Shown here piece after piece: positions 15,215-63,366 of a stretch of 64,000 nucleotides of DNA. Both the position numbers and the translations under genes were made by a program. This stretch comes from Liolophura sinensis (taxonomy: Eukaryota; Mollusca; Polyplacophora; Chitonida; Chitonidae): contig NC_088306.1 in the NCBI RefSeq assembly GCF_032854445.1, forward strand, positions 15,743,386 through 15,807,385, read 5' to 3'. Every line of letters begins with the position of its first letter. The first letter of the stretch is position 1. The notes beneath the pieces were generated by a model that searched no databases, had not been told where the DNA came from, and saw only the letters and a list, made by a program, of their open reading frames with translations.

Positions 15215-15770
15215 AAGCTGGCCCCTAACATGCCTTGCTACCCCTGACATGCCTGAATATCCTGCCCTCTCAGGAACATCAAACTGTTTGACATGTCTCC
15301 CTAACCCTTGAATATACACTGCTCCCAGAAGCATCTCAAATTGATTTATGTCTCTGGTTAAGCCCTGAATACCCTGCACTCTCAAGCACCTCACACTGTT
15401 TTACATCTTCCTAACCCTTGAATATACACTGCTTCCTGAAGCACCTCAAACTCATTTACGTCTCTTGTTACCCCCTGAATACCCTGCACTCTCAAGCACC
15501 TCAAACTGATTTATGTCTCTTGTCTCATGTAATTTACAAAAGCCTGCAATGTTCTGTCTCTGTCTCTGGTTAACCCCTAAATATTCTGCACTCTCAAGCA
15601 CCTCACACTGTTTTACATGTCTCCCTAACCCTTGAATATACACTGCTTCCTGAAGCACCTCAAACTGATTTATGTCTCACGTTACCCCCTGAATACCCTG
15701 CACTCTCAAGCACCTCAAACTGATTTATGTCTCTCGTCTCATGTAACTTACGAAAGCCTGCAATGTTCTT
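15215..15770. repeat. About 57-bp minisatellite ending at the CCDC160-like exon acceptor
   Basis: Eight or nine units alternate two types: CCTGAATACCCTGCACTCTC, then AAGCACCTCAAACTG; and CTTGAATATACACTGCTTCC, then TGAAGCACC. The block TCTCATGTAATTTACAAAAG, then CCTGCAATGTTCT, at about 15,531-15,556 recurs as TCTCATGTAACTTACGAAAG, then CCTGCAATGTTCT, at about 15,737-15,769. The second copy runs straight into the polypyrimidine tract and AG of the coding exon. The array therefore includes a copy of the pre-acceptor intron. Confidence 0.88.
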
Positions 15771-15781
15771 TTTTTTTCTAG

Positions 15782-16051: not shown

Positions 16052-17724
16052 GTAAAGGTCTGTCTAAATCCACTAAATTTGTTCACAGTTTTGTGGTTGA
16101 ATTCTCGATGCATGTATAGATATAATGTACATGGTACTGTGTTTATTTATTTATTTGATTGGTGTTTTACGCCGTACTCAAGAATATTTCACTTGTACGA
16201 CTGCGGCCAGCATTATGGTGGAAGGAAAACAGGCAGAGCCCGCATTGTACCGTGTGTCTGGATTATCTACCTGTAATGTCTGGATTATCTAAATGCATAC
16301 TGTAAATTTCTGTATGGCGTAACCCAGCAATCAATCATATAAATTCCTCAAATAATTTGACATGATTATTTTTAGGATATGCTGGAAAATTTTTGGCAAA
16401 AAATCCATAATTGCTAATCGAATCAAATTCCCTCCCCTTACTCCTACGTGTACTGTTTATATTGTTAAATTGATTCTAAATTTTGAGGAAGTTAAAAAAT
16501 TTATTTCCAATTTTGAACATCAACACATACACAGATGAAGTTCATATTTTGTGAAAGGTAATTAATAATAACAATAATTTGATTGGATTTGTGCTGATTG
16601 ATTTTTTTTTGCTAAAATCTCTGGTATAGTGTCTTGTATATTTATTTATTTATTTATTTGATTGGTGGTTTACGCCGTACTCAAGAATATTTCACTTATA
16701 AGACAGCGGCCAGCATTAAGGTGGGAGGAAACTGGGCAGAGCCCGAGGAAAACCCACGACCATCCGCAGGTTGCTGGCAGATTTTCCCACATACAGCCTG
16801 AGAGGAAGTCAGCATGAGCTGGACTTGAACTCACAGCGACTGCATTGATGAGAGGCTCCTGGGTTAGCGCGCTAACCAACTGAGCCACGGAGGCCCCGTG
16901 TCTTGTATAACATGTATGAAGAGGTTTTAACCTTTCAGACATTTACAGTGTAAGCAATGCATGTAATATTTGTGTTCTTGTTGCCTCTAACAGGAACTAG
17001 AGATGTTTCACAATCCAGTAACAACCGGTCTCCAGAACAAGGCACCACGGACAGAATGGAGAAGCATGTTGATCTGAGTCATTCTTGTATTTGGGACACA
17101 GAGGAGATATCTGTGCTACGCAAAGTGTACAAGGCAGCCAAAGAGGAAATAACTCAGTTAAAAGTCAGGATTCATGAAATAGAGGATAGAAATAAGAAGC
17201 TGGAGCAAAGGGCAGTAACTCTTGAGACTCAACTTCAGGACAAGACATCCAAGCACACCGAGGCCAAGAAGGCAAATCGCCGACTGAAAATTCACTGTGA
17301 TACGCTTCAGGAAGAAGTGGGAAAAGCTACAGCCAAAGTTAAAATGCTTCATGAAATGTACGAAGAAGCTAAAAAGGAAAGGGCTCGTTATATGATGGAA
17401 GCTCATGAGGCCCGGGTGGATCTGGACAAGGAAAGGCTGAAGAGAAAGGCTTTACAGGTGCAGTTCAGTAGTCAGAATCAGAAATTTGCTGTAGATAAAG
17501 TCCTGGCAGAAGAAAACATCAGGCTATCTTATGAACAAGAAATGGCCAATTTACAAAAAAGACTGGAAACTGTCTCCACTGATTTGGAATGTGAAAGAAA
17601 CCAACATTCTGTGACCAAGAAAGGACTGGAGCAATTACAGAAACATTTTTCCTCTTTACCTTATCAGGCAGGAGGCTTTCCTAATGCTGTAAGCAAGGAC
17701 GAGATCAAACGATTTCAGTATTAG
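15814..17724 (+). CDS. CCDC160: CCDC160-like coiled-coil protein, spliced gene
   Basis: Two coding exons (15,814 to 16,051 or 16,057; 16,994-17,724) give a protein of about 322 residues, close to the roughly 325 of vertebrate CCDC160. The N-terminus carries an acidic lead and then HWVESLFPP...LNEVLE, which matches the family's HW-x-E-x-x-F-x-P start. The C-terminal half is a long charged coiled coil. It ends in a block with EENIRLSYEQEMANLQ and LEQLQKHFSS, which lines up with the conserved CCDC160 end (EEMKSYYELEMAK, LELLRKHFAS). The first ATG in the exon (15,814) is used; an in-frame alternative at 15,727 lies in the upstream intron. Cellular function is poorly known for the family and I infer none. 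Confidence 0.85.
16139..16250 (-). mobile_element. Truncated SINE copy in the CCDC160-like intron
   Basis: It contains the AAATAAAT tail, the ACGCCGTACTCAAGAATATT block and the CAGCATTATGGTGG block, then stops within the body. The tRNA-like head is absent. Orientation is opposite to the host gene. Confidence 0.75.
16636..16898 (-). mobile_element. Full-length SINE copy in the CCDC160-like intron
   Basis: All blocks are present from the TTTATTTATTTATTTATTTG tail to GCGCGCTAACCAACTGAGCC plus ACGGAGGCCCC (the head on the - strand). It ends about 95 bp upstream of the second coding exon. Confidence 0.88.
16994..17724 (+). CDS. CCDC160: CCDC160-like terminal coding exon (coiled coil)
   Basis: The acceptor TTGCCTCTAACAG ends at 16,993. 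Phase 1 entry continues the frame as TRDVSQSSNN. The exon encodes about 243 residues dominated by Glu, Lys, Gln and Leu with heptad-like spacing. It ends ...DEIKRFQY before TAG at 17,722-17,724. Confidence 0.85.
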
Positions 17725-20936: not shown

Positions 20937-20939
20937 CGC

Positions 20940-24073: not shown

Positions 24074-27000
24074 CTGATGAATACAACACAAGTCACATAC
24101 AAACCGTCTGCATTTTGTTTTACTATGCAGTTTTCAATACAAAACTGGAAAATCCAGTCCAGAGACATTGTTTGCACACAGGTATTTCAAAAGCATTGGA
24201 ACTGGACAGTTTACAAATAGAGAGGCTGAAAACCCAAATACCTTTCCCATCTCAACGGGAAACTCGAGGACGAGCTACACAGGTCCCAGTTGCAGTAGAA
24301 CACATTATTTTCTTCTGTGATGTTGTTGCATTGCTTGTCTACTTCACATATGCTCAGCCCACATGCTTCAATAATTGTGTTTAACAAAGACAACAACAAA
24401 AGAGTTCATAGCCTTGGACCGTTTTTGTTAAAGACTGAGTTTTATGAGGTCTCTATTGTCCTTTGATATGTCATCGTTTGGAATTGGTAACATTTGTTTT
24501 TTGGTTTTTTTTCCTGTTATCTATGCAGGCGTACATGTTGTCACAACTAATGATGTTGGTACTTTTAACCTTCTTCCATATACTTACGTCTATTGCCGAC
24601 GATCCGCTCTAGTTTGTAGGTGCGCAAGCTGCCGCACTCCACTGCAATGTTTGGTCCCAGCTCGCTGAGGTCCTTCATGGGTGGGATACGAACGCGGTAC
24701 TTATGACGGACAATCACAGCATCCGGCACATAGTACCCACTCTGCAGAAATAAACATACAACATGACTGACCACCAGTGTGACTAAGTTTTCACTGATTC
24801 CCATACGCCAGAGCCCATTATAATCAAACATCTTAAGTCAAAAATTCAAATACAGCTACAAATAGAACTGTTTGCTCTAGAAAGCTACAACTTGTAAACT
24901 GATTCTTTATTGCAGAATGTACCAACCACAATTTAAGCCCTTTCCTTTGCTGATTTTGGCTTTTTAAGGATTTACAAATTATGATTTAAGTCTTAAGTTG
25001 GCTGATAAATACACCTCCAGAAAGCATTTTTTGTCTTGAATGAAAAGTGTAAATCTGAAACACAATCATTGATTTCAATGCTTTTGGTGAACATTCCTAC
25101 AGTGGTTCAAGAACAATACAACCTATACAACATTATCATGACACACTTAAGTAGCAGTCTTGTACAGAGAGAAAAACTTAAAGTTTGTGTAAATCTAAAT
25201 GGGATAAATAACATATATGGTGACCAATTATATCACTGTTCACAAACAATGCTACAAGGACCACTGTAATGTGGTAGTCATGAAAAGCAGTCGAGAGAGA
25301 CAACTTTAAATTCTGAATGTACCGACATACTGAGATAAAATTTAAAATGAATTCATTGGAATTATTAAAATGCAGTGTATCATTGTGAGCAAACAAACAA
25401 GGAGTAAAAATCTGTGTCAGTAATATAAGACATAAGAAGTTGTCAGTATACTTTAAACTATCTGCCATGCTGCATTCCTTTTATCAATCTCAACTTCAGA
25501 CACTGGATCTGACCTGCAGAAGTTGGTGCTGATTAAATGACCAGATTGGCATGTTCTGTGATTTATTATAGGATTGTCCAGTTTACATCAAAGCTGAAGG
25601 CAAAACCAGTTTATTTCCTTATTGCGAAGAAGTTTAGTTACCTTTGCAATTGAATGTTTGTTTCTCTGTGTAGGATAAAACATTGCCTAGTTGTCATGGA
25701 TTTACAGAAAATCCCATGTACTATTAATTATACGATGAAATTTAATCTCCAACAATACTTTTATTATTTTTTTTTTCCTTATTCATGTACAATTTGTGTG
25801 ATTAAAGTCCTGTCAGACTACCTAAATTCTAAAAACGTAAAAGTTCTCGCCTTACCCTCAGTTTCCATATCAGGTCAATCCAGTCCTTAGGGGGCGCCAC
25901 TAGGGTCCTGTTCAGATGCATCACGAAACATCGCTGCTTGTCTCGGTCCACAATGGCAGTGAAGTTCTGCAAATACCATGTTAAACATATTACATACAAC
26001 TTACATACTGGACTACAACATAGTTCTGCAGAAATTTGGAAATCAAATGCAAACGTATAAGATTTGATCTTACAGTATTAAATGTATGTGTTCAATGTGG
26101 AACTAATGGCTGTTATACAGACACATCTAAAACCACACTGCTGCAATAGGCCTCCTCTGAATTACCTCCCTTGTTATACCACGGCCATTATGACGTAACA
26201 GGCGTTTGAGGCATGAAACTGCGAGAAGTGGGACCTCACCTATTAAAGCATGCAGTATGTACAAGTAGCTCATGTCACAATAGTGACAAATACTTTCTGG
26301 GCAACAGAATGTAAAAACGCAAGTCTCACAAACGTCGCAAGATCTTTAATGAAGTCCATTTTTTTCCCATTGAAACTGTCTACTGTATTTAATTAGCACA
26401 ACGATTTAAACATTACCTCTGAATTTTGCAAAATTAAAATCTGTCATAAAGCTAGGTCTTCCAATAGTTCCTGCCCCTTTATCTCCACGACTTGCCATTA
26501 GCCATTTCCTGATGTCCCACCAAACCACAGCTTACTCCTTACAACCCACTTTGTAAACAGCAGTGACCTCAAGGGAGGTGCAACGGGTATCTAGAAGGAC
26601 ACATACTTACACTTTCAAAATCATGCAGTACCAGTGCCTTTTCGCACTCATCAAACTCCGGCACCTCAATCTTCTCCAGTCTGTTGTTGGTCACTTCTAC
26701 TGACTCGCTCATGTAACGATACTTCTTCTGCTTGTGATTTTTCTGCTCCTTCATGCGATGGTATTCTGACTTGGGTTGTCCGTCCTGTTCTAGCTCAAAT
26801 TCACTTTGGTCATAATATCTCACTCCATATACACCATAGGTAGCCTGCAAATGGCAATGAATCAATGATAGTGATCAAAACCAGCCTTAAATGCTCTACC
26901 ACATGTACATACCCCATCCCGATGTCACCAAACCAATGTTGATAGCCACACTTCATACCCACCAAAAGTAACATGCAAATCTGAATGAATCAATCAATGA

Positions 27001-30000
27001 CAGTGATCAAAACCAGCCTTAAACATTCTATCACATGTACATACTCCATCCTGATGTCACCAAAACAATGCTGAAAGTCACACTCCATACACACCATATG
27101 TAGCCTGCAACTGGCAATAAATCAATGACAGTGATCAAAACCATGCTCCTTCATGCGATGGTATTCTGACTTGGGTTGTCCGTCCTGTTCTAGCTCAAAT
27201 TCACTTTGGTCATAATATCTCACTCCATATACACCAAAAGTAGCAATAGCATGCAAATGGCAATTAATCAATGACAGTGATCAAATCCAGCCTTAAACGC
27301 TCTAGCACATGTACATACTCCATCCTGATGTCACCAAAACAATGCTGAAAGCCATACTTCATACCCACCAAAACTGGTCTACAACTGACAATAAATCAAT
27401 GACAGTGATCAAAACCAGCCTTAAACGCTTTAGCACATGTACATACCCCATCCCGATGTCACCAAAACAATGCTGAAAGCCACAATTAAAACACACCAAA
27501 GGTACCCTACAACTGGCAATGAATCAATGACAATGATCAAAACCAGCCTTAAACGCTCTACCACATGTACATACTCCATCCTAATGTCACCAAACCAATG
27601 TTGAAAGCCACACTTCATACACACCAAAAGTAGCATGCAAATCTGAATGAATCAATCACAGTGATCAAAACCAGCCTTAAATGTTCTACCTACAACTGGC
27701 AATGAATCAATGACAATGATCAAAACCAGCCTTAAACGCTCTGCCACATGTACATACTCCATCCCAATGTCACCAAATCAATGTTGAAAGCCACAATTAA
27801 AACACACCAAAGGTACCCTACAACTGGCAATGAATCAATGACAATGATCAAAACCAGCCTTAAACACTCTACCACATGTACATACTCCATCCCAATGTCA
27901 CCAAACCAATGTTGAAAGCCACACTTCATACACACCAAAGTAGCATGCAAATCTGAATGAATCAATCAATGACAGTGATCAAAACCAGCCTTAAACACTC
28001 TACCACATGTACATACTCCATCCTAATGTCACCAAACCAATGTTGAAAGCCACACTTCATACACACCAAAGTAGCATGCAAATCTGAATGAATCAATCAA
28101 TGACAGTGATCAAAACCAGCCTTAAACACTCTACCACATGTACATACTCCATCCTAATGTCACCAAACCAATGTTGAAAGCCACACTTCATACACACCAA
28201 AGTAGCATGCAAATCTGAATGAATCAATCAATGACAGTGATCAAAACCAGCCTTAAATGTTCTACCTACAACTGGCAATGAATCAATGACAATGATAAAA
28301 ACCAGCCTTAAACGCTCTGCCACATGTACATACTCCATCCTAATGTCACCAAACCAATGATAAAGTTCACACCATAGGTACAAGTACCTATGATCCAAAC
28401 CAGCCATAAACCATCTGGCAAGTCTGGTACAAATGTACATCGTACTACATCCGGGTGTAGCTAAAATAAAGGTGAAAGTCACACTCCATGCAACACACAC
28501 GTGCAAGTGAAGAGGAGATATCCAAGGCACCTGGAGAAATTTTCTTTACTGCCTTCCAACATGTACATGTGTAAGCAAGACAAATGTAAAATAAACATTT
28601 TAAGAAGCCTATTCTTCCATAATAAAAGTAAACCAAAATGCACACAAAACATCAACGATGGAACATCCCATTCGTAGCATTGTGTTTTACATGTATATTT
28701 TTGTTTTATTCCTTTCGGTATTATTAGCTTTTAGACTGAATTTTTCCAAATTATCTTATGTTTCAGAAAATCATTATGTGAGGCTTCCAATCAACAACCC
28801 TGAATGTCATCGTATATGACACAAATTCTTCACCTCAGCATTATACACAAGCACCAAGTTTAAAATACCTCCGTAACTAAAAATAAACAAACCAGCACAC
28901 GAAGACTTTATACATGAATGTTCGATTCATTTCCACATACTGTTTCCTGTAGATCTTATATTGTATAGCATAATCAGAAGTCGCTAGTCACACACATCTA
29001 TGTACAGACATACGTGTGCACTGGCCTTAATTCTTCTAAAATTTGGGACAGACATTAGTAGTGTTGAAAGTAGACTATTACAATTCTTTACCACCCTTTT
29101 GGAACAGTTAAGATATGAGTATGTTATTTATTAGATTGTCTGACCAGGTGAGAAAAAAGAAACTCAATATTTCTGCTAGAATTACATACATATTGGCTAA
29201 AATGGGTACACCAGGTGTCCCAAATAGGATAAGAAATACGGTAGTGTGCAGTTTATAGTATTTATTGTGTAACATTCATATTAAAACTACATGTAAACAC
29301 TACACATCTGATGAACCAGTACTTTTTGACGTACATGTACTACTAGGCAATCCTAACAAATATTTCTTATTGGTCATAACCTGACAACCTATCACAAAAA
29401 TTAGGTTTCATGGTACCTAGGAAATTCTTTTTTTATTATTTATCCTATTATTCTGTCTAATGAAACAGATAGGGATTTTAAAGAATTAGATTTCATCATA
29501 CATGTAAACATGCAGAGAATAATACATGTAGGCTTAGGTTATACACATGTAGAGTTCTACATGTATCCACATCCCAATAAAAACTTTAGTTAGTTATCTT
29601 TTTAAAGGATCTGTTGCGTTACATATACCAAACTGAAACAAACATATTTTTAATGATGGCCACAGTAATGTCAAGCCACAGCATACAGTGTGTTGGTTAT
29701 GAATAAGGTGCATGAATGTTACAGGAGAATGTCAGGTTGACTAGCATGGACTGGGACTGCTGACAACAAATGCTGGGTTACGGCATGTAAACAACAGACT
29801 AAAACATGCTCTTACAGCAGGACCTATAATCAATGTATGTTAGCATTCTTTACAGGCTTGTACAATGTACGGTGCATGCATGGCTGTTATATAAACAGCA
29901 ATTGTATGGGCAGTATGTTGAGTCATGTACATGTATACACATACCTACCTAATGGCCCTTTCATGTACTCGTGTTATGTTAATACATGGCTTGCATAATA

Positions 30001-45717: not shown

Positions 45718-45869
45718 TCTCACTACCTGTATCCAACAAACTGCACATATCTTTACGAGAAGCAAGGCGAAGATGCTGTCAGACTGAACATTCATCGTTA
45801 CACACGGCCCCTAAAATAAGTGAACAATTAAGAGCACACCGCTTAATCAGCAGTACTGAATCGTAACTG

Positions 45870-46495: not shown

Positions 46496-46497
46496 AG

Positions 46498-47885: not shown

Positions 47886-48271
47886 TAGGCACATTTTATA
47901 TAGATGCCGGGGGAAACCACCGTCCTGCACCCGATACCAAGTACCTGTATATTGTATAGTCCTATAGGCCTATGGACCCCATGTCGGGAAAACGGGTCTG
48001 GAGAGGCCGTGGGCTGTTGTATTCTTATGATATAGAATACCTTGTCTTATTCATCATCTGTCGTTGATAGTTCGATAATTTATACCGATAATTTACCTGT
48101 TGTCGATAGTTCGATAATTTGGAGAAGCGCTGTAGTAAATAAAATTTAAGTTAATGGTATGAGATATACAGTGATATAATCCGTATGTCTTTTTAATGAA
48201 CACAAATGTGTAACTATAATCATCCCACTACTTTGCATTTCGCGCCATATGTGTGGTCATGCGCACTACAC

Positions 48272-48312
48272 CGTCCTCCTGATGGATGTCCGTTCTCCTG
48301 GTGGATGTACTT
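48272..48312. repeat. Outlying reverse fragment of the 53-bp family
   Basis: CACCGTCCTCCTGATGGATG, then TCCGTTCTCCTGGTGGATGT, is the reverse-complement counterpart of the outlier at 40,545-40,605. The two outliers extend the mirror arrangement beyond the two main arrays. Confidence 0.7.
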
Positions 48313-49507: not shown

Positions 49508-49922
49508 ATGAGTATTCTCTATGCTTTGTTTTCATCAAGTGTGAACTTTTCAAGCCATTTAATCAGAGCAAGTCGCTTATCTACACATAGCTTTCTTTCA
49601 AAAGACGCAAGAGCTGTCTGCACAATGCCAACCAATGAGAGGAGTAAAAAACAGACAGGCAGTAAAAAGCGAAAAGCTGAGCCAAGAGTCGATGGTCAAT
49701 CCCCTCCTAAAAAGATAGCGCCCACTTCGTCAGATAAAGAAACAAGCAACCCTTCTGAAAACTTGGTGAAAAAGATTGAAGAGGCACGGAAAAATGTTGC
49801 CCGATCCATCGCTGATTTCAAATTCAACAAGAAGCGCGTGAGGATGTTGTCGGAGGCAGTGGAATTTGAAGAAGACAATGGAGCTGTTGTCTACTGGATG
49901 TCACGTGATCAACGTGTACAGG
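49508..49922 (+). CDS. Photolyase exon 1
   Basis: The first ATG follows an in-frame TAG (49,499-49,501) and lies in a weak context (TTTCATGA). The second, at 49,625, has A at -3. Residues 1-39 are Ser/Leu/Arg-rich with one acidic residue. Coding runs to ...MSRDQRVQ. The expected split Asp codon needs the exon to end at 49,922, but the next bases are GG then TATT. Four Gs stand where three would give G|GTATTG. Confidence 0.85.
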
Positions 49923-52900
49923 GGTATTGTAATTTGCCACTTTGCAGCAAACTTTTCTCCCTTTTTTAACGTTGTTAATCATGTACTTGACTCCATTCGG
50001 ACTTTGTGTCTCTTCCCCTGCACTTTGCTCGTTTTCCTCCCACCATAATGCTGGTCAAAGTCATATAAGTGAAGTACTTTAGAGTAGGGCGTAAAACACC
50101 AATCAGATTAATAAATATTTGTACCTTCACACCTCTCAAAGACAACCTCCAACCCTCCCTCCCTCCTCCACCTCTAAATCTGACGTGTGCTTCTGTGTGA
50201 TTGTCTCTCTTTAGCTATAAAGCTGTGTTCTGTTTTATGACAGATAACCTGGCCTTCCTCTATGCTCAGAGACTTGCCCTCAAAATGGAGGTTCCCTTAC
50301 AAGTGTTTTCTGTGTGATTGTCTCCCTTAAGCTAAACTAGGCCTTCCTCTACACTCAGAGACTTGCCCTCAAAAATGGCGGTTCCCTTACACGTGTGTTT
50401 CTGTGTGATTGTCTCCCTTTAGCTATAAAGCTTTGTTCTGTTTTATGGCAGATAACTAGGCCTTCCTCTACGCTCAGAGACTTGCCTCAAAATAGAGGTT
50501 CCCTTACACATGTGTTTCTGTGTGATTGTCTCCCTTAGCTCTAAAGCTTTGTTCTGTTTTATGGCAGATAACTGGGCCTTCCTCTACGCTCAGAGACTTG
50601 CCCTCAAAATGGAGGTTCCCTTACACGTGTGTTTCTGCTTGGTTTCCGAAGTTTCTGAAGCAACTATTCGACACTTCGGCTTCATGTTGAAAGGCCTACA
50701 AGAAGTTGAGCAGGTACTATAGATTACTGTCATTATCTGAAAAGGGTATGGAAACAGTAAGTTGTAATGGTTTGTATATGAATGTAGATATTTCTTGAAA
50801 CAGGCTCTAGGTGTTTGTACATGTATTTGATTGACAGGAATGCCAACGGCTTGACATTCAGTTTCATCTCCTGATTGGCTATGCTCAGGATGTCCTGCCG
50901 GACTTTGTAGTCAGTCACAAGATTATGGGCGTGGTCACAGATTTCAGCCCCCTGAGGGTTCCCATGGAGTGGGTGGAGAATGTGAGGAAGAACCTGCCAA
51001 AGACTGTTCCGTTTTGTCAGGTAAGATAGCTTTTGGATGCTATTTAATAAGATCACACTTTGGATGTGAAAATTAACATATTGCATCATCCAAACACACG
51101 ACTTGAAATAAGCTGCCAACGATCGTTCACATTTATACAGAGAGGTTACTCGATGACAAATTTTCTGTGAACGATCTTTTGTTCGCTGAAGGCAAACTGA
51201 CTAAACGGTAGAAAAACAAAATACTATATACTTTGAATGACTAAATCTGTTGGAAGAGCTGGGCTATGCTATGTGTCGACAATTAATTTCCTATTCTAGT
51301 CGTAATTTTCTTTCCAATCAAAAGGGTGGTAAATCCAAGTCCTGGTGATTGAAAACTTTAACTTAAAAGTTGATGCATCAAGCAACTATTATGAGGCACT
51401 GCAACTGGACTTTGTGATGCCATAGAAAGGAGATTAAAATCAAATTAATAAATGCAGTTACCTTCATGTATCGAGACATTTGTCTCTCGATAATTAACTT
51501 CCTGCTTTTCGAATCTTCTTCACAGTCAAAGTCTCTTATAAAATCCTAAACCGCATTGTTTGAAAACTAGAACGTGGTGCATGAGGCCAGTGGCGTGAAG
51601 CACATCTAACACGTGGTCAGTCAACTAGTTTAATATTTACATCGTCACAAGACCTAGTTAAACCATTCCGGAATATAACTTTTTATTTTATGGTTTTCTG
51701 ATATCAGTATAAAACATAAGATGAAATAAATTTTACATACATCACAAAAAATTAACATTTAAAATAAAATTTAAAAATATAAAAGCCAAATAACTCTGAG
51801 AAAATAATTTCCAACTTATGTAAGTACTTGGTGTTTAACGTCATACTCAAGAGAATTAAGAATAGAGATTAAATGCCATATCATTGGATGCTATGTTATC
51901 ATACCCTCGGATAATGGGGTTTAATTAGGCTGTTCAATTAATCTAACATACGGGGTTACAGGTGAACATAATGCTGTAACCTACAAATAGGGTACTGGTG
52001 TGAGGTCTTATTTCAAGATGTACAAACAGTGCCTAATATTTTTAACTTGATCGGAGCAACCCCTGTAAGTATATTTATGAGATGTCAGCAGTTGTAAAAT
52101 TTTGGCTCTGGTAAACTGATTTCAGCGTTGGACTGCCATTTTAAACTCTGAAATAGGAGTGAGAAAAAAAAAAAAAAAAACCCATAAAAAAGGACATAAA
52201 CCAGCTTCAACATAGAATTAAGAACTGATGTAGTTCAACATGTACAATGTTCATGTCAAAAAGATCAATCAATGATTATCTTCTCTTTAACATTCATTAA
52301 AACTGACACTCTCAACTCCCACTTCCTTTACCTTTCATTACAGATCTGACCAGTGTAAGTACATGTAGTACCTGGACTGTTAAAACTTTTTAGCAGTAGT
52401 ATCTTTCAGAACTAGATTCCCACAATATTGCATCGAAACTGGCTATCAGTCAGTTCAGGTGTCATTCTCTCTCACCGATAGATGCCCACAATATTATACC
52501 TTGCTGGGAGGCCTCACCTAAACTGGCTATCAATCAGTTGAGGTGTCATTCTCTGTCACAGGTAGATGCCCACAATATAGTGCCCTGCTGGGAGGCCTCG
52601 CCTAAATTGGCTATCAATCAGTTGAGGTGTCATTCTCTGTCACAGGTAGATGCCCACAATATAGTGCCCTGTTGGGAGGCCTCACCTAGACTGACTATCA
52701 ATCAGTTGAGGTGTCATTCTCTGTCACAGGTAGATGCCCACAATATATTGCCCCGCTGGGAAGCCTCACCTAAACTGACTATCAATCAGTTGAGGTGTCA
52801 TTCTCTGTCACAGGTAGATGCCCACAATATATTGCCCCGCTGGGAAGCCTCACCTAAACTGACTATCAATCAGTTGAGGTTTCATTCTCTCTCACCGATA

Positions 52901-55900
52901 GATGCCCACAATATTGTGCCCTGCTGGGAGGCCTCACCTAAACTGGCTATCAATCAGTTGAGGTTTCATTCTCTGTCACCGATAGATGCCCACAATATAG
53001 TGCCCTGCTGGGAGGCCTCATCTAAATTGGCTATCAGTCAGTTGAGGTGTCCTTTTCTGTCACCCATAGATGCCCACAATATAGTGTTGCTGGGAGGCCT
53101 CACCTAAACTGGCTATCATCAGATGAGGTGTCATTCTCTGTTGCAGGTAGATGCCCACAATATTGTACCTTGCTGGGAGGCCTCATCCAAACTGGCTATC
53201 AGTCAGTTGAGGTGTCATTCTGTCACCGATAGATGCTCACAATATAGTTCCCTGCTGGGAGGACTCGCCTAAACTGGCTATCAATCAGTTGAGGTGTCAT
53301 TCTCTGTCACAGGTAGATGCCCACAATATCGTACCTTGCTGGGAGGCCTCACCTAAACTGGCTATGAATCAGTTGAGGTGTCATTCTTTCTCAACGGTAG
53401 ATGCCCATAATATAGTGCCCTGCCTGGAGGCCTCGCCTAAACTGGCTATCAATCAGTTGAGGTGTCATTCTCTGTCACCGGTAGATGCCCACAATATATT
53501 GCCCTGCTGGGAGGCCTCATCCAGACTGGCTATCAATCAGTTGAGGTGTCATTCTCTGTCACAGGTAGATGCCCACAAGATTGTACCTTGCTGGGAGGCC
53601 TCACCTAAACTGGCTCTCAATCCGTTCAGGTGTCACTCTCTATTACAGGCAGATGCCCACAATATAGTTCCCTGCCTGGAGGCCTCACCTAAACTGGCTG
53701 TCAGTCAGTTCAGGTGTCATTCTCTGTCACCGATAGATGCCCACAATATAGTGCCCTGCTGGGAGGCCTCATCTAAACTGGCTATCAATCAGTTGAGGTG
53801 TCATTCTCTGTCACAGGTAGATGCCCACAATATCGTACCTTGCTGGGAGGCCTCACCTAAACTGGCTATCAATCAGTTGAGGTGTCATTCTCTGTCACAG
53901 GTAGATGCCCACAATATAGTGCCCTGCTGGGAGGCCTCATCTAAACTGGCTATCAATCAGTTGAGGTGTCATTCTCTGTCACAGGTAGATGCCCACAATA
54001 TCGTACCTTGCTGGGAGGCCTCACCTAAACTGGCTATCAATCAGTTGAGGTGTCATTCTCTGTCACAGGTAGATGCCCACAATATCGTACCTTGCTGGGA
54101 GGCCTCACCTAAACTGGCTATCAATCAGTTGAGGTGTCACTCTCTGTCACAGGTAGATGCCCACAATATCGTACCTTGCTGGGAGGCCTCACCTAAACTG
54201 GCTATCAATCAGTTGAGGTGTCATTCTCTGTCACAGGTAGATGCCCACAATATAGTGCCCTGCTGGGAGGCCTCATCTAAACTGGCTATCAATCAGTTGA
54301 GGTGTCATTCTCTGTCACAGGTAGATGCCCACAATATCGTACCTTGCTGGGAGGCCTCACCTAAACTGGCTATCAATCAGTTGAGGTGTCATTCTCTGTC
54401 ACAGGTAGATGCCCACAATATTGTTCCTTGCTGGGAGGCCTCACCTAAACTGGCTATCAATCAGTTGAGGTGTCATTCTCTGTCACAGGTTGATGCGCAC
54501 AATATAGTGCCCTGCTGGGAGGCCTCACCTAAACTGGAGTACGGAGCCAGGACCATCAGGAAGAAAATTCACGACCAGTTGTCTGGTTATCTGACAGGCT
54601 TCCCTCCAGTTTGCAAGCATCCCTACAAGGCAGAGTTCAAAGCTGAGGTAAGTGAGGATGTCTTTGTTGTCAGCCAGTTTTACCTGGCCAAGATACTAGC
54701 AGCATGAGCTGGACTTGAACTCACCATCACCACATTTGTGGGAGGCTCTTAGGTCTTTGCGCCGCGCTGGTACGCTCAAATGGTCATTCACTTTGTAGCT
54801 GCTTGATGAAAACAGTGTGAGATGTTAAGGGCTCAACTTTAAGGGTTGTCTGGTCATCAGAGACAACTGAATTCGCCTGCAGACAACCATAAAGTCCCGT
54901 CACACATGTAAAATAACCTGCGCTAGACGAAAAATCAAACCTGAGAAGCTACATGTATTTTTGCAGGTGTCACGGCCATTTTTGCGGGAGTCACGGCCAA
55001 TATGACAGAAGCATGTTCAGATTTACCATACATTGCTGTGTTGCCACCCTCCACCATGTTAAAACAAAACTGTCCTCATTAAAGTTTGGTACTAACCGTG
55101 ATCCCAACTCTCCTCCCACCTGGTATCCCCGTTCAAACACCCAGCCTGGATAATTATGTTCACGCCCCCATGTCCTGGTGAACAACCCCACGTTGTCTAG
55201 AGTGGACTTCATGATGTTGTCCTCTGATGACAGGGCTTCAGATTACACACCACATGTACTTTCCAATGTAAATGTTATGCTCGAACAACTCTCAGCTCAG
55301 CACAAATTGAGTCACCAATAACCAGAGCCCTCTTATAAACAGTTACAAATCTCTCTTTGTTTATAAAGTTAAATTTACGAAATCAAATTCAGAATATTTT
55401 TGTGCTGGACACAAAATTTTGATGGGCAAATTTCACTCTTCCCATGACCATCATGTTATCCTGGTTCACAGGCACCATCACTACATTATGCTATGTTAGC
55501 TGGGAGACACATGGTCCTTTTGGTCAGTAAATAAACCCAGCAGGAGCCAACCAGATGTCTTCAGAAAATGAGTTTCTTAGACAGGGCTCACTGATAATGC
55601 CATTACGGATTAAACAGTGAACTCGCCAAGTGTTGCAATCTTATCAAAGCTCACGTGTTAGAAAAAGTGTTCACAAGTTTGAAATTTACATGTAGTTTTC
55701 AAAATGTTTAAGTGGGATTTAAGTGCGAAATTATTTTTGCCACAAAGTCATTAATGCTATAATTTATGGTCGGCTTCACTGAAGTTGTCATCACCTCTGA
55801 ATTTCTGTTTCAACAACAACATATACATGCGACTCATGCCTTCATCTGTAAGCACTGGTTTCACTTTCAGATGCACAAGTGTTTTACATGTAGCACTAGC

Positions 55901-58900
55901 CACTCAAAAATATCACTGTGCAGCCTGGTGTCATGTGATATATTTCAGACACCAGAACACTCACTTGTAATAAGTGTAAATTTTTTTGTTGTTGTTGGTT
56001 ATTTGGTTTAATACCATGTTGGGAAAATAGGTATACATGTATCAATCTATTGTGCACAAAACTGTCCAGGCAACCAATTTCTGTGTCAGTTTCAAAGACA
56101 GACTATGGTTTGTCCAGGAAAAATCCTTAAAATTGAGCCCTGGTTATTGTTTGCTTGTGAATTCTGTCTCTACAGAACTGCAGAGTATTTCATCGATGAA
56201 AGCTGTTTTATGATATCTCCACAAAGCCATATTATCCGCTGATATCCTTACCAACAGAACAGTGATATTAAAAAGGCCAGTATAAGGTGCCTCTTGTACG
56301 GGATAAGCTTCCAGTAACTTAACAGAATTTTTACTTAATGGTATTATCCACTGATATCCTCACCAACAGAACAGTGAAAGTAAAAAGGCCAGTATAAGGT
56401 GCCTCTTTGTGCAGGATAATCTTCCAGTAACTTAACAGAATTTTTACTTAATGGTATTATCCACTGATATCCTTACCAACAGAACAGTGATATTAAAAAG
56501 GCCAGTATAAGGTGCCTCTTTGTGCAGGATAATCTTCCAGTAACTTCGCAGAATTTTTACTTAATGGTATTATCCACTGATATCCTTACCAACAGAACAG
56601 TGATATTAAAAAGACCAGTATAAGGTGCCTCTTTGTGCAGGATAATCTTCCAGTAACTTAACAGAATTTTTACTTAATGGTATTATCCACTGATATCCTT
56701 ACCAACAGAACAGGGAAAGTAAAAAGGCCAGTATAAGGTGCCTCTTTGTGCGGGATAATCTTCCAGTGACTTCACAGAATTTTTACTTAATGGTATTATC
56801 CACTGATATCCTTACCAACAGAACAGTGAAAGTAAAAAGGCCAGTATAAGGTGCCTCTTTGTGCAGGATAATCTTCCAGTAACTTAACAGAATTTTTACT
56901 TAATGGTATTATCCACTGATATCCTTACCAACAGAACAGTGATATGAAACATGTCAAATGAGGATAAGCGTTCAGTACCTTTGCGGAATTTTGACTGAGC
57001 CTGTTATTAAAACTATTGTGTTTTCCTTAAATCACATACGTGAAAACCATCTGAAATTTGAAATATTAAAGGGTAGACCATAAAATCCCAGTGAAACCAA
57101 TAAATAAGTGGGTCTTACTTTGTTAGCTGTTCATAAGGCTGTCCTTTAAAAAATTTTCATTTTGTATAACCTAAAAAAAGTAGTGTGGGTTGACAAAAAC
57201 TTAAATCAGTAGGGCCTTTTTTGGAGGGTCAGTGGGATTACGCCCATTAAAATACATTTTTAATGATGGTCCCAGATCTGAGTTTAATCAGCCTTGTTCA
57301 TTTTCAGCCCATTGACTGGGAAGCTGCAGAGGCAAGTCTAGAAGTGGACCGATCCGTTACTGAGGTGGATTGGGCCATTCCAGGGACAGAGGGGGGACTC
57401 AGAATGCTGGAATCTTTCTGCAATAAGAGGTTGAAATATTTTAATGCTGATAGAAACAACCCAAACAAGGCAGCACTGAGTAATCTGTCCCCATGGATAC
57501 ATTTTGGTGAGTGCCTGAAAGTTACTTTTCCTGATGAAAATATTTTTAGCTCATATTTGAACAAAAGTGATGCTTTTGGTTGCAGGGTGTATTTTATGTA
57601 AAGCCCCCCCCCCCCCCCCCCAACCTAAAAAAAATCTTTAATGTGCTGCTTGTTCAATACACGTAGATCTGTATTTGAGACTGAAAGAATGGATGAGGTG
57701 GTTAACCTGCCAGCACAGCGCAATGAACCAGTTCAAATCTGCAGCAACCTGTGGATGATCTTGAGTTCCCCCCTGGCTCTTTCCGGTTTCTGGCCGCCAT
57801 CGTTTGACGTGAAACATTCTTGAGTATGACATAAACACCAAGGAAATAAAGTAGACTGAAAGGATAGAAACTGTATTCTTTAAAAATTCTTTCCCCTTAC
57901 GAACACTTCTTACAGTTTCCCCTTCCAAAGTTTCTTTTCACAAACTACTCTTTACCTACAGTTTATCCTTCCAAAGTTTCCTTTCACAAACTGTTTCTCC
58001 TCACATAAAGTTCCCCTTTCAAAGCTTCCTTTCCCAAACTGCTCCTCCTCACATAAAGTTTCCCCTTACAAGGTTTCCTTTCCCAAACTGCTCTTTACAT
58101 ACAATTCCCTTCCCAAATCTTCCTTTTTTAAACTGCTCCTCCTTACGAACAGTTAACTCTTCGAAAACTTTGTCTTTCAAACTGCTCCTATTACAAACAG
58201 TTAACTCTTCAAAAACTTTCTCTTTCAAACTGCTCCTCCTTGCGAACCGTTTACCCTTCCAAAGTATCCTTTCACAAACTGGTCCTCCTTACCCATAGTT
58301 TACCCTTCCAAAGTTTCCTTTCACAGACTGCTCCTCCTTGCGAACAGTTTACCCTTCCAAAGTGTCCTTTCACAAACTGCTCCTCCTTACCTATAGTTTA
58401 CCCTTCCAAAGTTTCCTTTCACAAACTACTCCTCCTTGCGAACAGTTTACCCTTCCAAAGTTTCCTTTCACAGACTGCTCCTCCTTGCAAACTGTTTACC
58501 CTTGCGAAGTGTCCTTTCACAAACTGGTCCTCCTTACCTATAGTTTACTCTTCCAAAGTTTCCTTTCACAGACTGGTCCTCTTTGCGAACAGTTTACCCT
58601 TCCAAAGTTTCCTTTCACAGATTGCCCCTCCTTGTGAACCGTTTACCCTTCCAAAATGTCCTTTCACAAACTGGCCCTCCTTACCTATAGTTTACTCTTC
58701 CAAAGTTTCCTTTCACAGACTGCTCCTCTTTGCAAACTGTTTACCCTTCCAAAGTGTCCTTTCACAAACTGCTCCTCCTTGCGAACAGTTTACCCTTCCA
58801 AAGTTTCCTTTCACAGACTGCTCCTCCTTGTGAACTGTTTACTTTTCCAAAGTGTCCTTTCACAAACTGGTCGTCCTTACCTATAGTTTACCTTTCCAAA

Positions 58901-61900
58901 GTTTCCTTTCACAGACTGCTCCTCCTTGCGATCTGTTTACCCTTCCAAAGTGTCCTTTCACAAACTGGTGGTCCTTGCGAACAGTTTACCCTTCCAAAGT
59001 GTCCTTTCACAAACTGCTCCTCCTTGCGAACAGTTTACCCTTTCAAAGTTTCCTTTCACAGACTGCTCCTTCTTGCGAACTGTTTACCCTTCCAAAGTGT
59101 CCTTTCACAAACTGGTCCTCCTTACCTATAATTTACCCTTCCAAAGTTTCTTTTCACAGACTGCTCCTCCTTGCGAACAGTTTACCCTTCCAAAGTGTCC
59201 TTTCACAAACTGCTCCTCCTTACCTATAGTTTACCCTTCCAAAGTGTCCTTTCACAAACTGGTGGTCCTTGCGAACAGTGTACCCTTCCAAAGTGTCCTT
59301 TCACAAACTGGTGGTCCTTGCGAACAGTGTACCCTTCCAAAGTGTCCTTTCACAGACTGGTGGTCCTTGCGAACAGTGTACCCTTCCAAAGTGTCCTTTC
59401 ACAAACTGCTCCTCCTTTTGTACAATTTCACCTTACCAACTGCTTCTTTGCCGTTTTGTTTGCAGGCCAGATTTCTGTCCAGCGATGTATTTTGACAGTG
59501 AAGGAATATCGCAGTAAATACAAGGAGAGTGTGGACGGCTACATTGAGGAGGCTGTTATTCGTAGAGAACTGGCTGACAATTTCTGTTTTTACAACAAAA
59601 ATTATGACAAGATTGAAGGTACATTTACTGGTAGATGTATTACCTGAGGTGTGTGATTCCAGGCCTTAACAGTCGATTTAATTGGAATCAGAGTTTTGGA
59701 AATTGCCGTAAAATTTTTTTTGAAAAAAGAGGTAAATAAATTTCATTAATACCACTTTCATGCTGAATATTTTTGTCGACAAAATATCATCTTAGCAACT
59801 CTCTAAGATGGATAAAACTCTCAGATCAATCAATAAATTTGATTGATTAATTGATTGAAAGCATGTTTGTTTGTTGTTGTTTTTTTAATAGATGGGAAGT
59901 GATGTTTGTTCTTATTTTATTTTTATAGGTTTGTTTTTAAATTCAACCTTTGTATATGTCCAGTTAGCTACTTGAAGGAATCATTATCATGAAGTTTGTC
60001 TACGATGATGTTTGTCTACGATGACGTTTGTCTACGATGTTTTGCTGTCAGGTGCTTACGACTGGGCAAAGAAAAGTCTAGAGCTGCACAAGGGAGATAA
60101 GCGTGAATATTTGTACAGTCGAGAGAAGCTGGAGGCGGGCAAAACTCACGATGATCTCTGGAACGCTGCTCAGGTATTATACATGGAATAGTAGGGGAGC
60201 TCTGAGAAACGTGAACTTATCAACTCGAGGTCAAATTTTAAACAATAAGTGTTTAAATACTTGTGAGGAACTAGCTACATCTGAAAGGCACTTGTTAGGC
60301 TTGAAAGCCAGGTAATTTGAAGCTGGAATTTTGTAGATGTCCTCGCTCTCATGGTTTGTTGTATTTTGGTGAAAATAAGCGTTGTACAACAGTTGTAAGG
60401 GTGTGTGTGTGTGCAGTCTACCATGTGTTAAAGACCACTTGTCTTCCACCAGTATGGTGAGCTTATCTGTACCTCACGTGTGGGAAAGTTTGTCAAAACT
60501 TGCCAAAGGTCAATCGCTTGTGCCTAACATTCCAGGTTCCTTCAATTATCAAACTGTCCAAATTCATCTGTTTCACTCAAGCATGAAAACAGTGTTTTGT
60601 TTTATTTTTATCCGTATCATGTAAATATGTGAAGGTTGGAGATCAGAAATGCTCAAGCAGGCTGAATGGTTTTGTTTCTCAGATCCAGATGGTTAGAGAA
60701 GGCAAAATGCATGGCTTCCTGAGAATGTACTGGGCCAAAAAAATCTTGGAGTGGACTGAGAGTCCTGAACAGGCATTGGTTGAAGCAATTTACTTGAATG
60801 ACAAGTACGAGTTAGATGGGAGAGACCCGAATGGTTATGTGGGTGAGTACTGAACAGGTGTTGTTAGAAGTGATATATCTGAGACCCGAATGGTTATGTG
60901 GGTGAGTACTGAACAGGTGTTGTTAGAAGTGATTTGTGTGAATGACAAGTATGAGTTAGACGAGAGATACCCGAATGGTTATGTGGGTGAGTACTGAACA
61001 GGTGTTGTTGAAGGTGATTTGTCTGGATGACAAGTATGAGTTAGATTAGAGAGACCCGAATGGTTATGTGGGTGAGTACTGAACAGGTGTTGTTAGAAGT
61101 GATTTATCTGAGACCCGAATGGTTATGTGGGTGAGTACTAAACAGGTGTTGTTGAAGGTGATTTGTCTGGATGACAAGTATGAGTTAGATGGGAGATACC
61201 CGAATGGTTATGTGGGTGAGTACTGAACAGGTGTTGTTAGAAGTGATTTGTGTGAATGACAAGTATGAGTTAGACGAGAGAGACCCGAATGGTTATGTGG
61301 GTGAGTACTGAACAGGTGTTGTTAGAAGTGATTTATCTGAGACCCGAATGGTTATGTGGGTGAGTACTGAACAGGTGCTGATAGAGGTGATTTGTCTGAA
61401 CGAGGAGTTAGACAAAAGAGATTGTATTTTGAGGTTGTGTGTGGTTTGTCTGTAGTGATTACTTTTTTATTTGTATTTTCAGGTTGTATATGGTCTATTT
61501 GTATCATTGACAGAGAATATGTATTTTCAGGTTGTACAGTACAGCCAGATCTTAACCATCAATCTTACGCCCATTGTGGCCGGTCGGCGTATGATACACA
61601 GACCATGCACCTTCGTGCGCCTAGACCGTGACGCAATCTTCCAGCCATCATATGCTGACCCTCGGTGAACTGTTAGCGGCCATCGGCCCATAATCATCAA
61701 ATGTTTTAAAGCTAAATACAGATCGATTTCCTGTAAACTGTCATGTCTGTTAAGAACACAGTGATGGCTCGCAGCATATTTACTTGCACACAAATTTCAC
61801 ACAAAGGTCGAGTTTTAATAGCTTACTGTTTGGGAACCCTGCTGTTTTGGTCTGCCACCCATATAGATGTACATGTACACCGTTCCTTTGAGGACAGGGG

Positions 61901-63366
61901 GATTCACGTTTGTACTATGCATCTCAAGTATACAATATTTTGTTTTAATATAAATTACTTCACTAATTATTAAATAATAAGCCTACATAGAGGCATTTGT
62001 GGCTGTTTTATGTGCCGACATATATATGTATATGCAACTCATTGATGTCTCTGAAGTCTGCACTCTACACGGTGGCTCTATACAACCGTGACGGCGTTTT
62101 AGAATTTGGAAACGAACTTGAGTTCTTTCACTTATCATAAATTTATCACAGTTTCATGTTGGAGACAAAATTGTGCTGGAATATTTGACTTTATTGTGTG
62201 ATGTGTGTCAGTCTGCGTGCTTATATATTCTTAAAAAACCTCTGTTGAAAATGTATATGTAATGAGTTATATCAGTACACCATCAAGACCTACAATTTAT
62301 AAAAGTCGAACTGCTGATGCGTATAAACACCAGCAAGTTAATATTTTTCCCTTTAATCTTGAGTCCCTAAATTGAATCCCTGGTTTCATAATTGTCGATC
62401 CTATCGTTTAATAATTTTATATGTACAAAAGCGTGTTTGTTATATGACAAACATAATCCTATGTAACCTTTATATACGCATGAAGACATGCGATGTAAAC
62501 CCTAAGCCTGTATATATAGATGCACCCTAAATCTTGCATAAAATGAAGCTATAAAATGTATTACATATTTTGAGAATATTCCTCCACCATTCATACATTA
62601 ATTATGAAAATACACCCAGGAAAGTAAAAGTCAAAACTGAAGATTTTTGGTACCGGTAAAAAAGAAATCTATTGGCACAGTTACAGTCCAGTTTTTTGCT
62701 TTTTACTTAAGAATAGCCTAATTAAATTGCCTTTCATGAAATATCAGCCTCGTCTGTGCACACGTTATATTCAAAATCTGTAATAAAGTTGTAAAAATTT
62801 ATAGGAAAAGTTAGGCGAATAATGCAAGGCCTACACTGCACATGTACATCTGATGTTGTTACATCAAACTCCAGCGAGTGAATAAATGACGTAATATGAT
62901 ACACTAACCATGGTGCTACGATGTATGGACTGTCTGCAGACTGGGGCCGACCCTACGCCAATGGTAGGCAGAGGGTGATGGTGTGTTTGATCAGGGACCA
63001 GCCAGGGTTGGGGTATAGTGGGCATCTATACATGTACCGTCGGACCACAATGGGCATAGGATTGATGGTTAGGATCTGGCTGTACTGTATTTGTGGTATT
63101 CGCATGGTATTTGTATTTTCATGCTATATGGGGTTTATTTGTGGTGTTCATGGTAGTTGTATATTCAGGTCATATGTGGTCTTGTTTGTGGTATTCACAC
63201 AGTATTTATATTTTCAGGTTGTATGTGGTCTATTTGTGGCATCCACGACCAGGGCTGGGCAGAGAGACCTGTCTTTGGAAAAATCAGATACATGAACTAC
63301 AATGGCTGTAAGAGGAAATTTGACGTCCCTGAATTTGTCCGTCAATACAAGGCAAAGAAAGCTTGA
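49508..63366 (+). CDS. Class II CPD photolyase, spliced gene
   Basis: Nine exons give 561 residues from the first ATG, or 522 from the second (49,625). The enzyme uses FADH- and light to split cyclobutane pyrimidine dimers in DNA. Class II landmarks in order: WMSRDQRVQ (about 130), [22 protein letters not shown] and EYGARTIR (FAD and lesion region), [30 protein letters not shown] (tryptophans seven apart, probably the electron-transfer pair), and [16 protein letters not shown] with FGKIRYMNY near the C-terminus. Exons 2 to 9 join in frame. The exon 1 donor has an extra G (see findings). A basic [11 protein letters not shown] region after the second ATG looks like a nuclear signal. Several introns carry junction arrays. 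Confidence 0.95.
50030..50115 (+). mobile_element. SINE 3' fragment in photolyase intron 1
   Basis: TTTTCCTCCCACCATAATGC, ATATAAGTGAAGTACTTTAG, then GGGCGTAAAACACCAATCAG and ATTAATAAAT match the last third of the main SINE family. Confidence 0.8.
50195..50567. repeat. About 118-bp repeat made of the photolyase exon 2 acceptor junction
   Basis: Three imperfect copies precede the true exon. Each holds GTGTGATTGTCTCCCTTTAG, usually TTCTGTTTTATGGCAGATAA (intron end, acceptor and first exon bases), and then CCTTCCTCTACGCTCAGAGA plus CTTGCCCTCAAAATGGAGGT, which is exon coding sequence. The second copy lacks the acceptor segment. Copies carry frame-breaking changes. Confidence 0.88.
50568..50713 (+). 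CDS. Photolyase exon 2
   Basis: The acceptor TTTTATGGCAG and donor CAG|GTACTA enclose the rest of the split Asp codon and 48 codons, [20 protein letters not shown] then CFCLVSE... Phase 2 bases enter and phase 0 exits. Confidence 0.93.
50838..51020 (+). CDS. Photolyase exon 3
   Basis: The acceptor TTGATTGACAG and donor CAG|GTAAGA enclose 61 codons in phase 0. [15 protein letters not shown] and [11 protein letters not shown] are typical of the class II N-terminal alpha/beta domain. Confidence 0.94.
51021..52412. other. Photolyase intron 3, left part
   Basis: AT-rich intronic sequence with an A run near 52,165-52,180 and a short SINE-like scrap near 51,823-51,860 (TTGGTGTTTAACGTCATACT). No exon seen. 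Confidence 0.5.
52413..54488. repeat. 84-bp minisatellite made of the photolyase exon 4 acceptor junction
   Basis: About 25 units. Each has 48 bp matching the start of exon 4 (GTAGATGCCCACAATAT, CTGCTGGGAGGCCTC, CTAAACTG) and 36 bp matching the intron end (GCTATCAATCAGTTGAGGTG, then TCATTCTCTGTCACAG). Almost every unit keeps the AG. The unit equals 28 codons in the exon's frame ([20 protein letters not shown], then LRCHSLSQ) and is open across 53,289-54,488 and on into the exon. A block near 53,060-53,290 has indels that break the frame. Confidence 0.96.
54489..54647 (+). CDS. Photolyase exon 4
   Basis: The last acceptor of the array (TCTGTCACAG) and donor GAG|GTAAGT enclose 53 codons in phase 0: [20 protein letters not shown], then [11 protein letters not shown]... 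Only from EYGA onward is the sequence unique, because its first 48 bp are the array motif. Confidence 0.94.
54648..56209. other. Photolyase intron 4, left part
   Basis: It contains a SINE head fragment on the - strand at about 54,698-54,780 (GCATGAGCTGGACTTGAACT, then CACCATC, and GCGCCGCGCTGGTACGCTC). Otherwise non-coding, with no exon recognised. Confidence 0.5.
56210..56945. repeat. 113-bp minisatellite in photolyase intron 4
   Basis: Six to seven units of CACTGATATCCTTACCAACA, GAACAGTGATATTAAAAAGG, CCAGTATAAGGTGCCTCTTT, and TTAACAGAATTTTTACTTAA. It ends about 360 bp before exon 5 and shares no sequence with it that I can see. Confidence 0.92.
57308..57506 (+). CDS. Photolyase exon 5
   Basis: The acceptor TTCATTTTCAG and donor G|GTGAGT enclose [46 protein letters not shown] and PWIHF. 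Entry is phase 0 and exit phase 1. Confidence 0.94.
57700..57850 (+). mobile_element. Diverged SINE fragment in photolyase intron 5
   Basis: GCACAGCGCAATGAACCAGT, TCTGCAGCAACCTGTGGATG, GGCTCTTTCCGGTTTCTGGC, and ATTCTTGAGTATGACATAAA, then CACCAAGGAAATAAAG, keep the family order with losses. Confidence 0.65.
57890..59420. repeat. About 49-bp pyrimidine-rich minisatellite ahead of photolyase exon 6
   Basis: About 30 units of TTTACCCTTCCAAAGTTTCC, then TTTCACAGACTGCTCCTCCT, then TGCGAACAG. Each contains CTTTCACAG or a close variant, which looks like a 3' splice site. It stops about 45 bp before the true acceptor TTTGTTTGCAG. Long + strand frames (up to 197 codons) in all three frames result from the lack of stops in the unit. 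Confidence 0.94.
59466..59618 (+). CDS. Photolyase exon 6
   Basis: It encodes [30 protein letters not shown] and [10 protein letters not shown] between TTTGCAG and [19 protein letters not shown] is a class II hallmark. Confidence 0.95.
60000..60051. repeat. Short 18-bp tandem repeat abutting the photolyase exon 7 acceptor
   Basis: TTTGTCTACGATGA and close variants occur three times. The last runs into TTTTGCTGTCAG, the acceptor of exon 7. Confidence 0.8.
60052..60173 (+). CDS. Photolyase exon 7
   Basis: Acceptor TTGCTGTCAG and donor CAG|GTATTA. It encodes [20 protein letters not shown], then [20 protein letters not shown]. Phases fit both neighbours. Confidence 0.94.
60174..60682. other. 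Photolyase intron 7
   Basis: Non-coding, with a short GT run near 60,401-60,413. No junction-derived array seen here. Confidence 0.5.
60683..60842 (+). CDS. Photolyase exon 8
   Basis: The acceptor TTTGTTTCTCAG and donor G|GTGAGT enclose [40 protein letters not shown], and [14 protein letters not shown]. The two Trp residues of YWAKKILEW are seven apart. Confidence 0.95.
60843..61400. repeat. About 84-bp (and shorter) repeat made of the photolyase exon 8 end with its donor
   Basis: Seven copies follow the exon. Each matches its last roughly 75 bp (TGAACAGG...GAATGACAAGTATGAGTTAG, then GAGACCCGAATGGTTATGTG) followed by GGTGAGTAC. Every copy therefore carries a complete 5' splice site. Some copies lack the central part and measure about 50 bp. 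Reading through the true donor meets a stop within four codons (GTGAGTACTGA). Confidence 0.93.
61435..61533. repeat. Copies of the photolyase exon 9 acceptor, distal block
   Basis: GGTTGTGTGTGGTTTGTCTG and TTGTATTTTCAGGTTGTATA, then TGGTCTATTTGT, followed by TATGTATTTTCAGGTTGTA, repeat the intron end and first codons of exon 9, about 1.7 kb upstream of it. At least two AGs follow good pyrimidine tracts. Confidence 0.82.
61535..61590. repeat. Inverted repeat in photolyase intron 8, left arm
   Basis: TACAGTACAGCCAGATCTTA, then ACCATCAATCTTACGCCCAT and TGTGGCCGG. It pairs with 63,036-63,089 as a reverse complement with few mismatches. Confidence 0.8.
61670..62920. other. Photolyase intron 8, between inverted-repeat arms
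   Basis: AT-rich and non-coding, with no exon recognised. A 76-codon + strand frame at 61,743-61,973 has no motif. Confidence 0.5.
63036..63089. repeat. Inverted repeat in photolyase intron 8, right arm
   Basis: CCGTCGGACCACAATGGGCA, then TAGGATTGATGGTTAGGATC and TGGCTGTACTGTA, is the reverse complement of 61,535-61,590. Confidence 0.8.
63090..63217. repeat. Copies of the photolyase exon 9 acceptor, proximal block
   Basis: Two to three diverged units (GTATTTGTATTTTCATGCTA, then TATGGGGTTTATTTGTGG; TATTCAGGTCATATGTGGTC) precede the true junction TATTTTCAG|GTTGTATGTGG at 63,217. They repeat both the intron end and the CMWSICG-coding start. Confidence 0.85.
63218..63366 (+). CDS. Photolyase exon 9, C-terminus
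   Basis: It encodes [40 protein letters not shown] and RQYKAKKA, then TGA. The block is strongly typical of class II enzymes. Entry phase 1 fits exon 8. Confidence 0.96.

Follow-up and report, generated by a model that had tools for sequence, protein, structure and literature searches.

Tandem copies of exon-intron boundaries are known from lancelets, where they have been named 'mirages'. In amphioxus they occur in Adh3, TnC, PGBD5 and the globin genes BflGb6 and BflGb9, with units of tens to about 160 bp (PMC3087553, PMC3902484). Here we describe arrays of this kind in a mollusc, the chiton Liolophura sinensis. The window, by which we mean the whole stretch of 64,000 nt analysed (contig NC_088306.1, hereafter C12, positions 15743386-15807385), holds an ITM2-like gene and a class II CPD photolyase gene in which six tandem arrays have units that span a splice junction together with exon sequence. 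These arrays are probably mirages, that is, minisatellites whose unit happened to include an exon-intron junction, and which are frequently born in genes, purged from exons and tolerated at junctions.

Like the amphioxus mirages, the chiton arrays are minisatellite-like duplications of boundaries that affect both donors and acceptors and keep many splice dinucleotides intact (PMC3087553, PMC3902484). They differ in being found in a mollusc rather than a cephalochordate (occurrence in cephalochordates being apparently no part of the definition) and in their extent, with six in two genes of one window, further cases at 8 of 156 ends of myosin-head matches sampled across the genome, and up to 25 copies and 2.1 kb per array. 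Undisturbed regular splicing, length polymorphism, somatic instability (for Adh) and homogenised internal copies with more distinct ones at the edges are reported for the lancelet mirages, whereas the chiton arrays are known from the sequence of one assembly. An earlier note on this DNA, written without database searches, knew of no named system that behaves in this way; the lancelet literature had already supplied the name. A literature search that included molluscs and chitons by name, and left subscription journals mostly uncovered, found no report of mirages in molluscs among the papers listed; for molluscs they are likely new.

Another described phenomenon is related. In the Rogers model (cited in PMC3087553), introns are gained by tandem duplication of AGGT-bearing segments, and a case of intron gain by tandem duplication has been described for a potato RdRp gene (PMC4974935). 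The chiton arrays share with this model a tandem duplication that carries splice signals, but they multiply existing junctions and no new intron is evident. A nematode study of minisatellites and splicing deals with minisatellites that lie in introns close to alternative exons and do not copy the junctions (PMC4039745).

Arrays at splice junctions of two host genes

Arrays in the window were called with Tandem Repeats Finder (TRF), and junction copies were identified by a separate scan with the 50 bases around each junction at 66% identity or more; the counts of copies include the copy in use. The 53 TRF rows merge into 25 arrays (period of at least 10) that occupy 24.5% of the sequence. Twenty 10-kb stretches along the same chromosome consist of arrays to 11.3%, making the window rich in arrays rather than alien. 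The six junction-spanning arrays, four in the photolyase gene and two in the ITM2-like gene, comprise two donors and four acceptors, so that both boundary types are hit. Their copies are minisatellite-like tandem repeats that lie in register.

The photolyase gene (49625-63366, forward strand, as are all of its arrays) is securely identified by a 522-aa spliced reading across nine coding exons that matches PDB 3umv, which we take to be the rice protein, with an E value of 1.5e-145. At the acceptor of exon 4, an 84-bp unit is present in 25 copies (52436-54537), 17 of which have the AG. The decoys, meaning the copies other than the one in use, have a consensus that differs from the used copy by two synonymous and no nonsynonymous codon differences, and the used copy lacks two changes that are frequent among them. 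The exonic part of the unit encodes 14 residues that align to a conserved stretch of PDB 3umv, with QVDAHN.VP in common. From the purely synonymous differences and this common stretch it follows that the exon is the older of the two and served as the source of the array.

The other photolyase arrays are shorter. At the acceptor of exon 2 (50180-50640; TRF bounds 50335-50637), a 117-bp unit gives copies at 50244, 50452 and 50568, all three with AG. The donor of exon 8 is repeated at distances of 59 or 85 bp (60760-61400), and GT is found in 8/8 copies. At the acceptor of exon 9 (63088-63239), the unit measures 46 bp and two of the three copies have AG. At exons 2, 4 and 8, many copies have the same letters around the splice site as the copy in use. 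This comparison of letters suggests that the choice depends on the context of the exon and not on the strength of the site.

Two side observations concern the same gene. The exon 9 unit has a second patch at 61422-61536, upstream of the main array by about 1.5 kb, which looks like the result of a split in a single array. At the end of exon 1 stand four consecutive Gs (49919-49930), and the sole GT donor at this place misses the frame of exon 2 by one base; an error of sequencing, a polymorphism or an atypical splice may account for this.

The ITM2-like gene (24567-34031, reverse strand) is securely recognised from its predicted BRICHOS domain (Pfam, E 2.6e-15), and four coding exons were read. 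Exon 2 is placed at about 33867-34031, and the array at its donor runs over 31926-33907 on the reverse strand, its end having been moved by hand from the TRF bound of 33856 so that the used copy is included. Its unit is about 87 bp with a higher-order period of 174 bp, and 15 of its 16 copies have GT. The used copy is 66-74% identical to the decoys that pass the 66% threshold. A second array covers the acceptor of exon 3 (26744-28359, reverse strand), with TRF periods of 128, 131, 183 and 402 and AG in 5/7 copies.

Several arrays lie beside junctions without copying them. One (15252-15769) abuts an acceptor of a coiled-coil gene on the forward strand, the first that was recognised there, whose exon begins at 15782; the name CCDC160 given to this gene is unconfirmed, no Pfam family having scored above cut-off. 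In the photolyase gene, a 49-bp array (57912-59417) ends 48 bp before exon 6 and a 16-bp array (59989-60039) ends 12 bp before exon 7. For all three, the scan finds the used junction alone. They are therefore adjacent arrays rather than junction arrays, in agreement with the earlier note, which had placed them directly upstream of acceptors. A further 113-bp array (56230-56942) is purely intronic, within photolyase intron 4 of the exon model. Elsewhere in the window, four regions (16140-16905, 34140-34400, 35430-35710 and 42870-43110) read by eye as copies of a tRNA-derived short interspersed element (SINE), presumably of a type typical of molluscs and their relatives; a literature search with the letters of this element gave two unrelated papers. 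Scans of the window with Rfam (at gathering scores) and for tRNAs gave no match.

Misassembly is a well-known risk with tandem arrays, and the published assembly (PMC11068029, as Liolophura japonica) was built from PacBio HiFi reads at a coverage of about 14x. Yet the mean read of 8,347 bp exceeds every array in the window, the longest of which measures 2.1 kb by TRF, so an artefact is unlikely on read length. The copies also differ among themselves and other genes show the same pattern, which leaves misassembly as an extremely improbable explanation.

A foldback-like element and the question of mobile repeats

The earlier note counted at least seven junction-spanning arrays and saw the pattern across all four genes of the window. 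Of the seven that it listed, six stand. The seventh belongs to a gene that the note called unidentified, and its array is the end of a mobile element. Two arrays of a 53-bp unit, one on the left (40863-41571, forward strand, 13 units) and one inverted on the right (46496-47892, reverse strand), are 81-86% identical to each other by blastn and lie towards the two ends of a segment at 40552-48333, a range read by eye and approximate. Eight of the 13 left units end in CAG, and the last contains the acceptor (exon from 41540) that the earlier note assigned to the enclosed gene.

The 53-bp unit is dispersed. Genome-wide searches covered 609,464,459 bases in 632 contigs, and the unit has at least 849 matches (40 scored of 149 first-look candidates). 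Among the matches listed, it occurs on 11 contigs, in part as inverted pairs whose members are separated by a few kb, such as C1:65515024-65516749 (forward) with 65521032-65524417 (reverse) and C12:25492257 (forward) with 25497358 (reverse). The interior, including most of the first three exons as read by eye, occurs at 12 genome places besides the window at 87-95% identity, some of them partial, and at least five of these 12 copies lie near 53-bp arrays. Judged by this structure, the segment is a foldback-like element, and we infer that the enclosed gene, whose best domain is a PHD-like finger scoring below cut-off, is the element's own. It resembles the foldback transposons Galileo (PMC3573991) and Tetris (PMC4079207) in its inverted terminal repeats with internal repetition and in its dispersed copies, but differs from them in that no transposase was identified and no clear target-site duplication was found at 40552-48333. 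Since the array is dispersed and inverted, and the DNA of the gene multicopy, it was rejected as a mirage of a host gene. Junction arrays thus occur in two host genes, not four.

The element shows that repeats at an acceptor can be of mobile origin, as its dispersed unit, its inverted pairs and the multicopy DNA between the arrays indicate, and it could be asked whether the remaining arrays are likewise mobile repeats inserted beside exons. For these, however, such an origin is very improbable. The host units contain sequence of the adjoining exon, and the photolyase exon 4 unit matches the genome solely within its own array, which refutes a mobile origin for that case. Ten arrays were compared with the rest of the window and with 276 kb of further sequence, and eight of them match nothing but themselves; the two exceptions, the 53-bp array and the photolyase exon 9 array, match elsewhere in the window only. 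This comparison is weak, because the dispersed 53-bp unit also found no match in the 276 kb. The earlier claim that the arrays are not one mobile repeat is accordingly borne out genome-wide for photolyase exon 4, fails for the 53-bp array and rests on the weak local comparison for the others.

Array placement compared with chance

With TRF bounds and with the mobile array included, 6 of the 14 arrays within gene spans hold a junction, compared with 1.4-1.7 expected (P 0.0009-0.004). For host genes only, and with the ITM2-like exon 2 array extended, the count is 6 of 12 against 1.5-1.7 expected (P 0.0007-0.0018). These values favour a rival explanation in which tandem duplication truly concentrates on splice junctions, for instance because R-loops form there or because DNA breaks are coupled to transcription or splicing, so that arrays preferentially nucleate at these places. 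They are optimistic, because the window was picked for its junction-array pattern.

To escape this choice, a sample was drawn independently of repeats, from genome matches to the Pfam family Myosin_head. There were 81 matches among those listed (65 of 213 first-look candidates scored). Sixty stretches were read, containing 78 matches with 156 match ends, the other three matches lying outside these stretches. The ends are those of the hidden Markov model matches rather than annotated exon ends, and two matches may share an exon, so that 156 is an upper count of junctions. The stretches contain 41 arrays (TRF score of at least 40, period of at least 10). Eight of the match ends, on five contigs, carry mirages whose copies hold both exon and intron sequence: six donors (L035, L039, L062, L070, L077 and L085) and two acceptors (L050 and L055), with L035 and L039 in one gene. 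The L070 unit measures 129 or 140 bp depending on the TRF run.

Reading of the sequences decided the doubtful cases. Seven overlaps between arrays and exons were flagged at first, of which L034 was dropped, as its copies contain no exon sequence, and L054 was dropped as doubtful, as its acceptor resembles a degraded unit. L045 was not counted; its copies resemble the junction, but its TRF array begins about 50 bp into the intron. Arrays also lie near, not over, the junctions at L043 (both sides), L053 and L060. Array density differs strongly between regions: a 10.3-kb myosin segment (L088/L035/L089/L039, C12:677001-687264) consists of arrays to 53%, and in a different myosin gene, on C1, a segment of 7 kb is free of them.

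How far the myosin genes support a hotspot depends on the null model. If one unit per array is placed at random, 8 junction arrays compare with 3.3-4.0 expected (P 0.010-0.034). If wholly exonic placements are excluded, the expectation rises to 5.0-6.1 (P 0.08-0.23), and across nulls the junction arrays reach 1.3-2.4 times the random placement of local arrays. In the first 40 stretches, with 110 match ends, 5 junction arrays were seen against 2.1-2.5 expected (P 0.04-0.08). With the 20 chromosome stretches as the baseline of array density, the same 5 compare with 0.9-1.2 expected (P 0.002-0.009), a comparison that mixes genes with intergenic DNA and sets one chromosome against many. Local copies in the first 40 stretches were found for 5/110 junction cores, 189/1165 intronic cores and 3/324 exonic cores; intronic sequence near exons is thus copied locally more often than junctions are. 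With this result, with several arrays merely near junctions and with an excess that shrinks once exonic placements are excluded, junction hotspots are a possible but unlikely explanation. A wider version, in which a transcription- or splicing-coupled process common to this chiton and lancelets makes junctions hotspots and the arrays continually give rise to new introns, in-frame insertions or exon ends that have shifted, seems quite unlikely.

A further departure from chance concerns exons. No wholly exonic array was found in the myosin sample, against 5.0-9.6 expected (P<=0.003), and junctions are not depleted of arrays. The earlier note had considered that junctions are amplified by some local process, or that their amplification is selected for or tolerated. 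Tolerance is supported by these counts, but targeting of junctions is unproven, its support changing with the null model; preferential nucleation there is suggested at most.

Probable origin and tolerance of the chiton mirages, and their significance

A simple sequence of events could produce this distribution. Short stretches of about 30-130 bp would often be duplicated in tandem, roughly anywhere in genes, and slippage, unequal exchange or conversion would then raise the number of copies and make them alike. Where the first duplication fell wholly within an exon, the protein would be damaged and the variant lost. Where it crossed a junction, every copy except the one on the exon body would fall into the intron. 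Under exon definition, splice sites are paired across the exon, and the intronic copies would be harmless because the splicing machinery would take the copy adjoining the exon body and ignore the others. According to the earlier note, it is invariably the terminal copy that is in use. This is true, but it follows from geometry, as only one copy is joined to the unique exon body, and it is no evidence by itself.

Several observations weigh against tolerance of randomly placed duplications as the whole explanation. The excess of junction arrays over random placement, present in the window and slight in the myosin genes, indicates that random placement may be only part of the story. At the ITM2-like exon 2 donor, the used copy reads GTAAGT and nearly all others GTCAGT; the former looks better, so site strength may matter there. 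The pattern at photolyase exon 4 is not repeated at the other arrays, where decoys and used copy differ by one synonymous and one nonsynonymous change (photolyase exon 2), by neither kind (photolyase exon 8), by three of each (ITM2-like exon 2) or by two synonymous and three nonsynonymous changes (ITM2-like exon 3). Finally, correct splicing is itself inferred from sequence.

Selection for a function, either in splicing regulation or in producing in-frame variants of protein length, would also keep arrays at junctions. The 84-bp unit of photolyase exon 4 is open in phase with the exon over 53211-54707, upstream acceptor copies, if used, would insert multiples of 28 residues, and stops in the exon frame are rare in this array (1/24 copies) and in that of ITM2-like exon 2 (0/15). 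Such stops are nevertheless present at photolyase exon 8 (3/7), ITM2-like exon 3 (3/6) and photolyase exon 2 (1/2), and the units of the host arrays have no match to one another. Of 15 junction arrays, roughly one in three has a unit length divisible by three (117, 84, 87, 66 and, in one of two TRF readings, 129), as chance predicts. Selection for function is therefore very improbable, and mirages born at many places in genes and tolerated at junctions remain the preferred explanation.

In summary, mirages have so far been a curiosity of a few lancelet genes. Their presence at about 5% of exon ends in one sampled chiton gene family suggests that they extend beyond cephalochordates. For gene prediction this is a warning, as up to two dozen decoy sites can adjoin a real exon. 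For genome evolution, chiton mirages would supply material from which introns could be gained as the tandem-duplication model proposes. They would also serve as a natural experiment, on a large scale, in how one of many near-identical sites is chosen for splicing, and their distribution fits a role of exon definition as a buffer.

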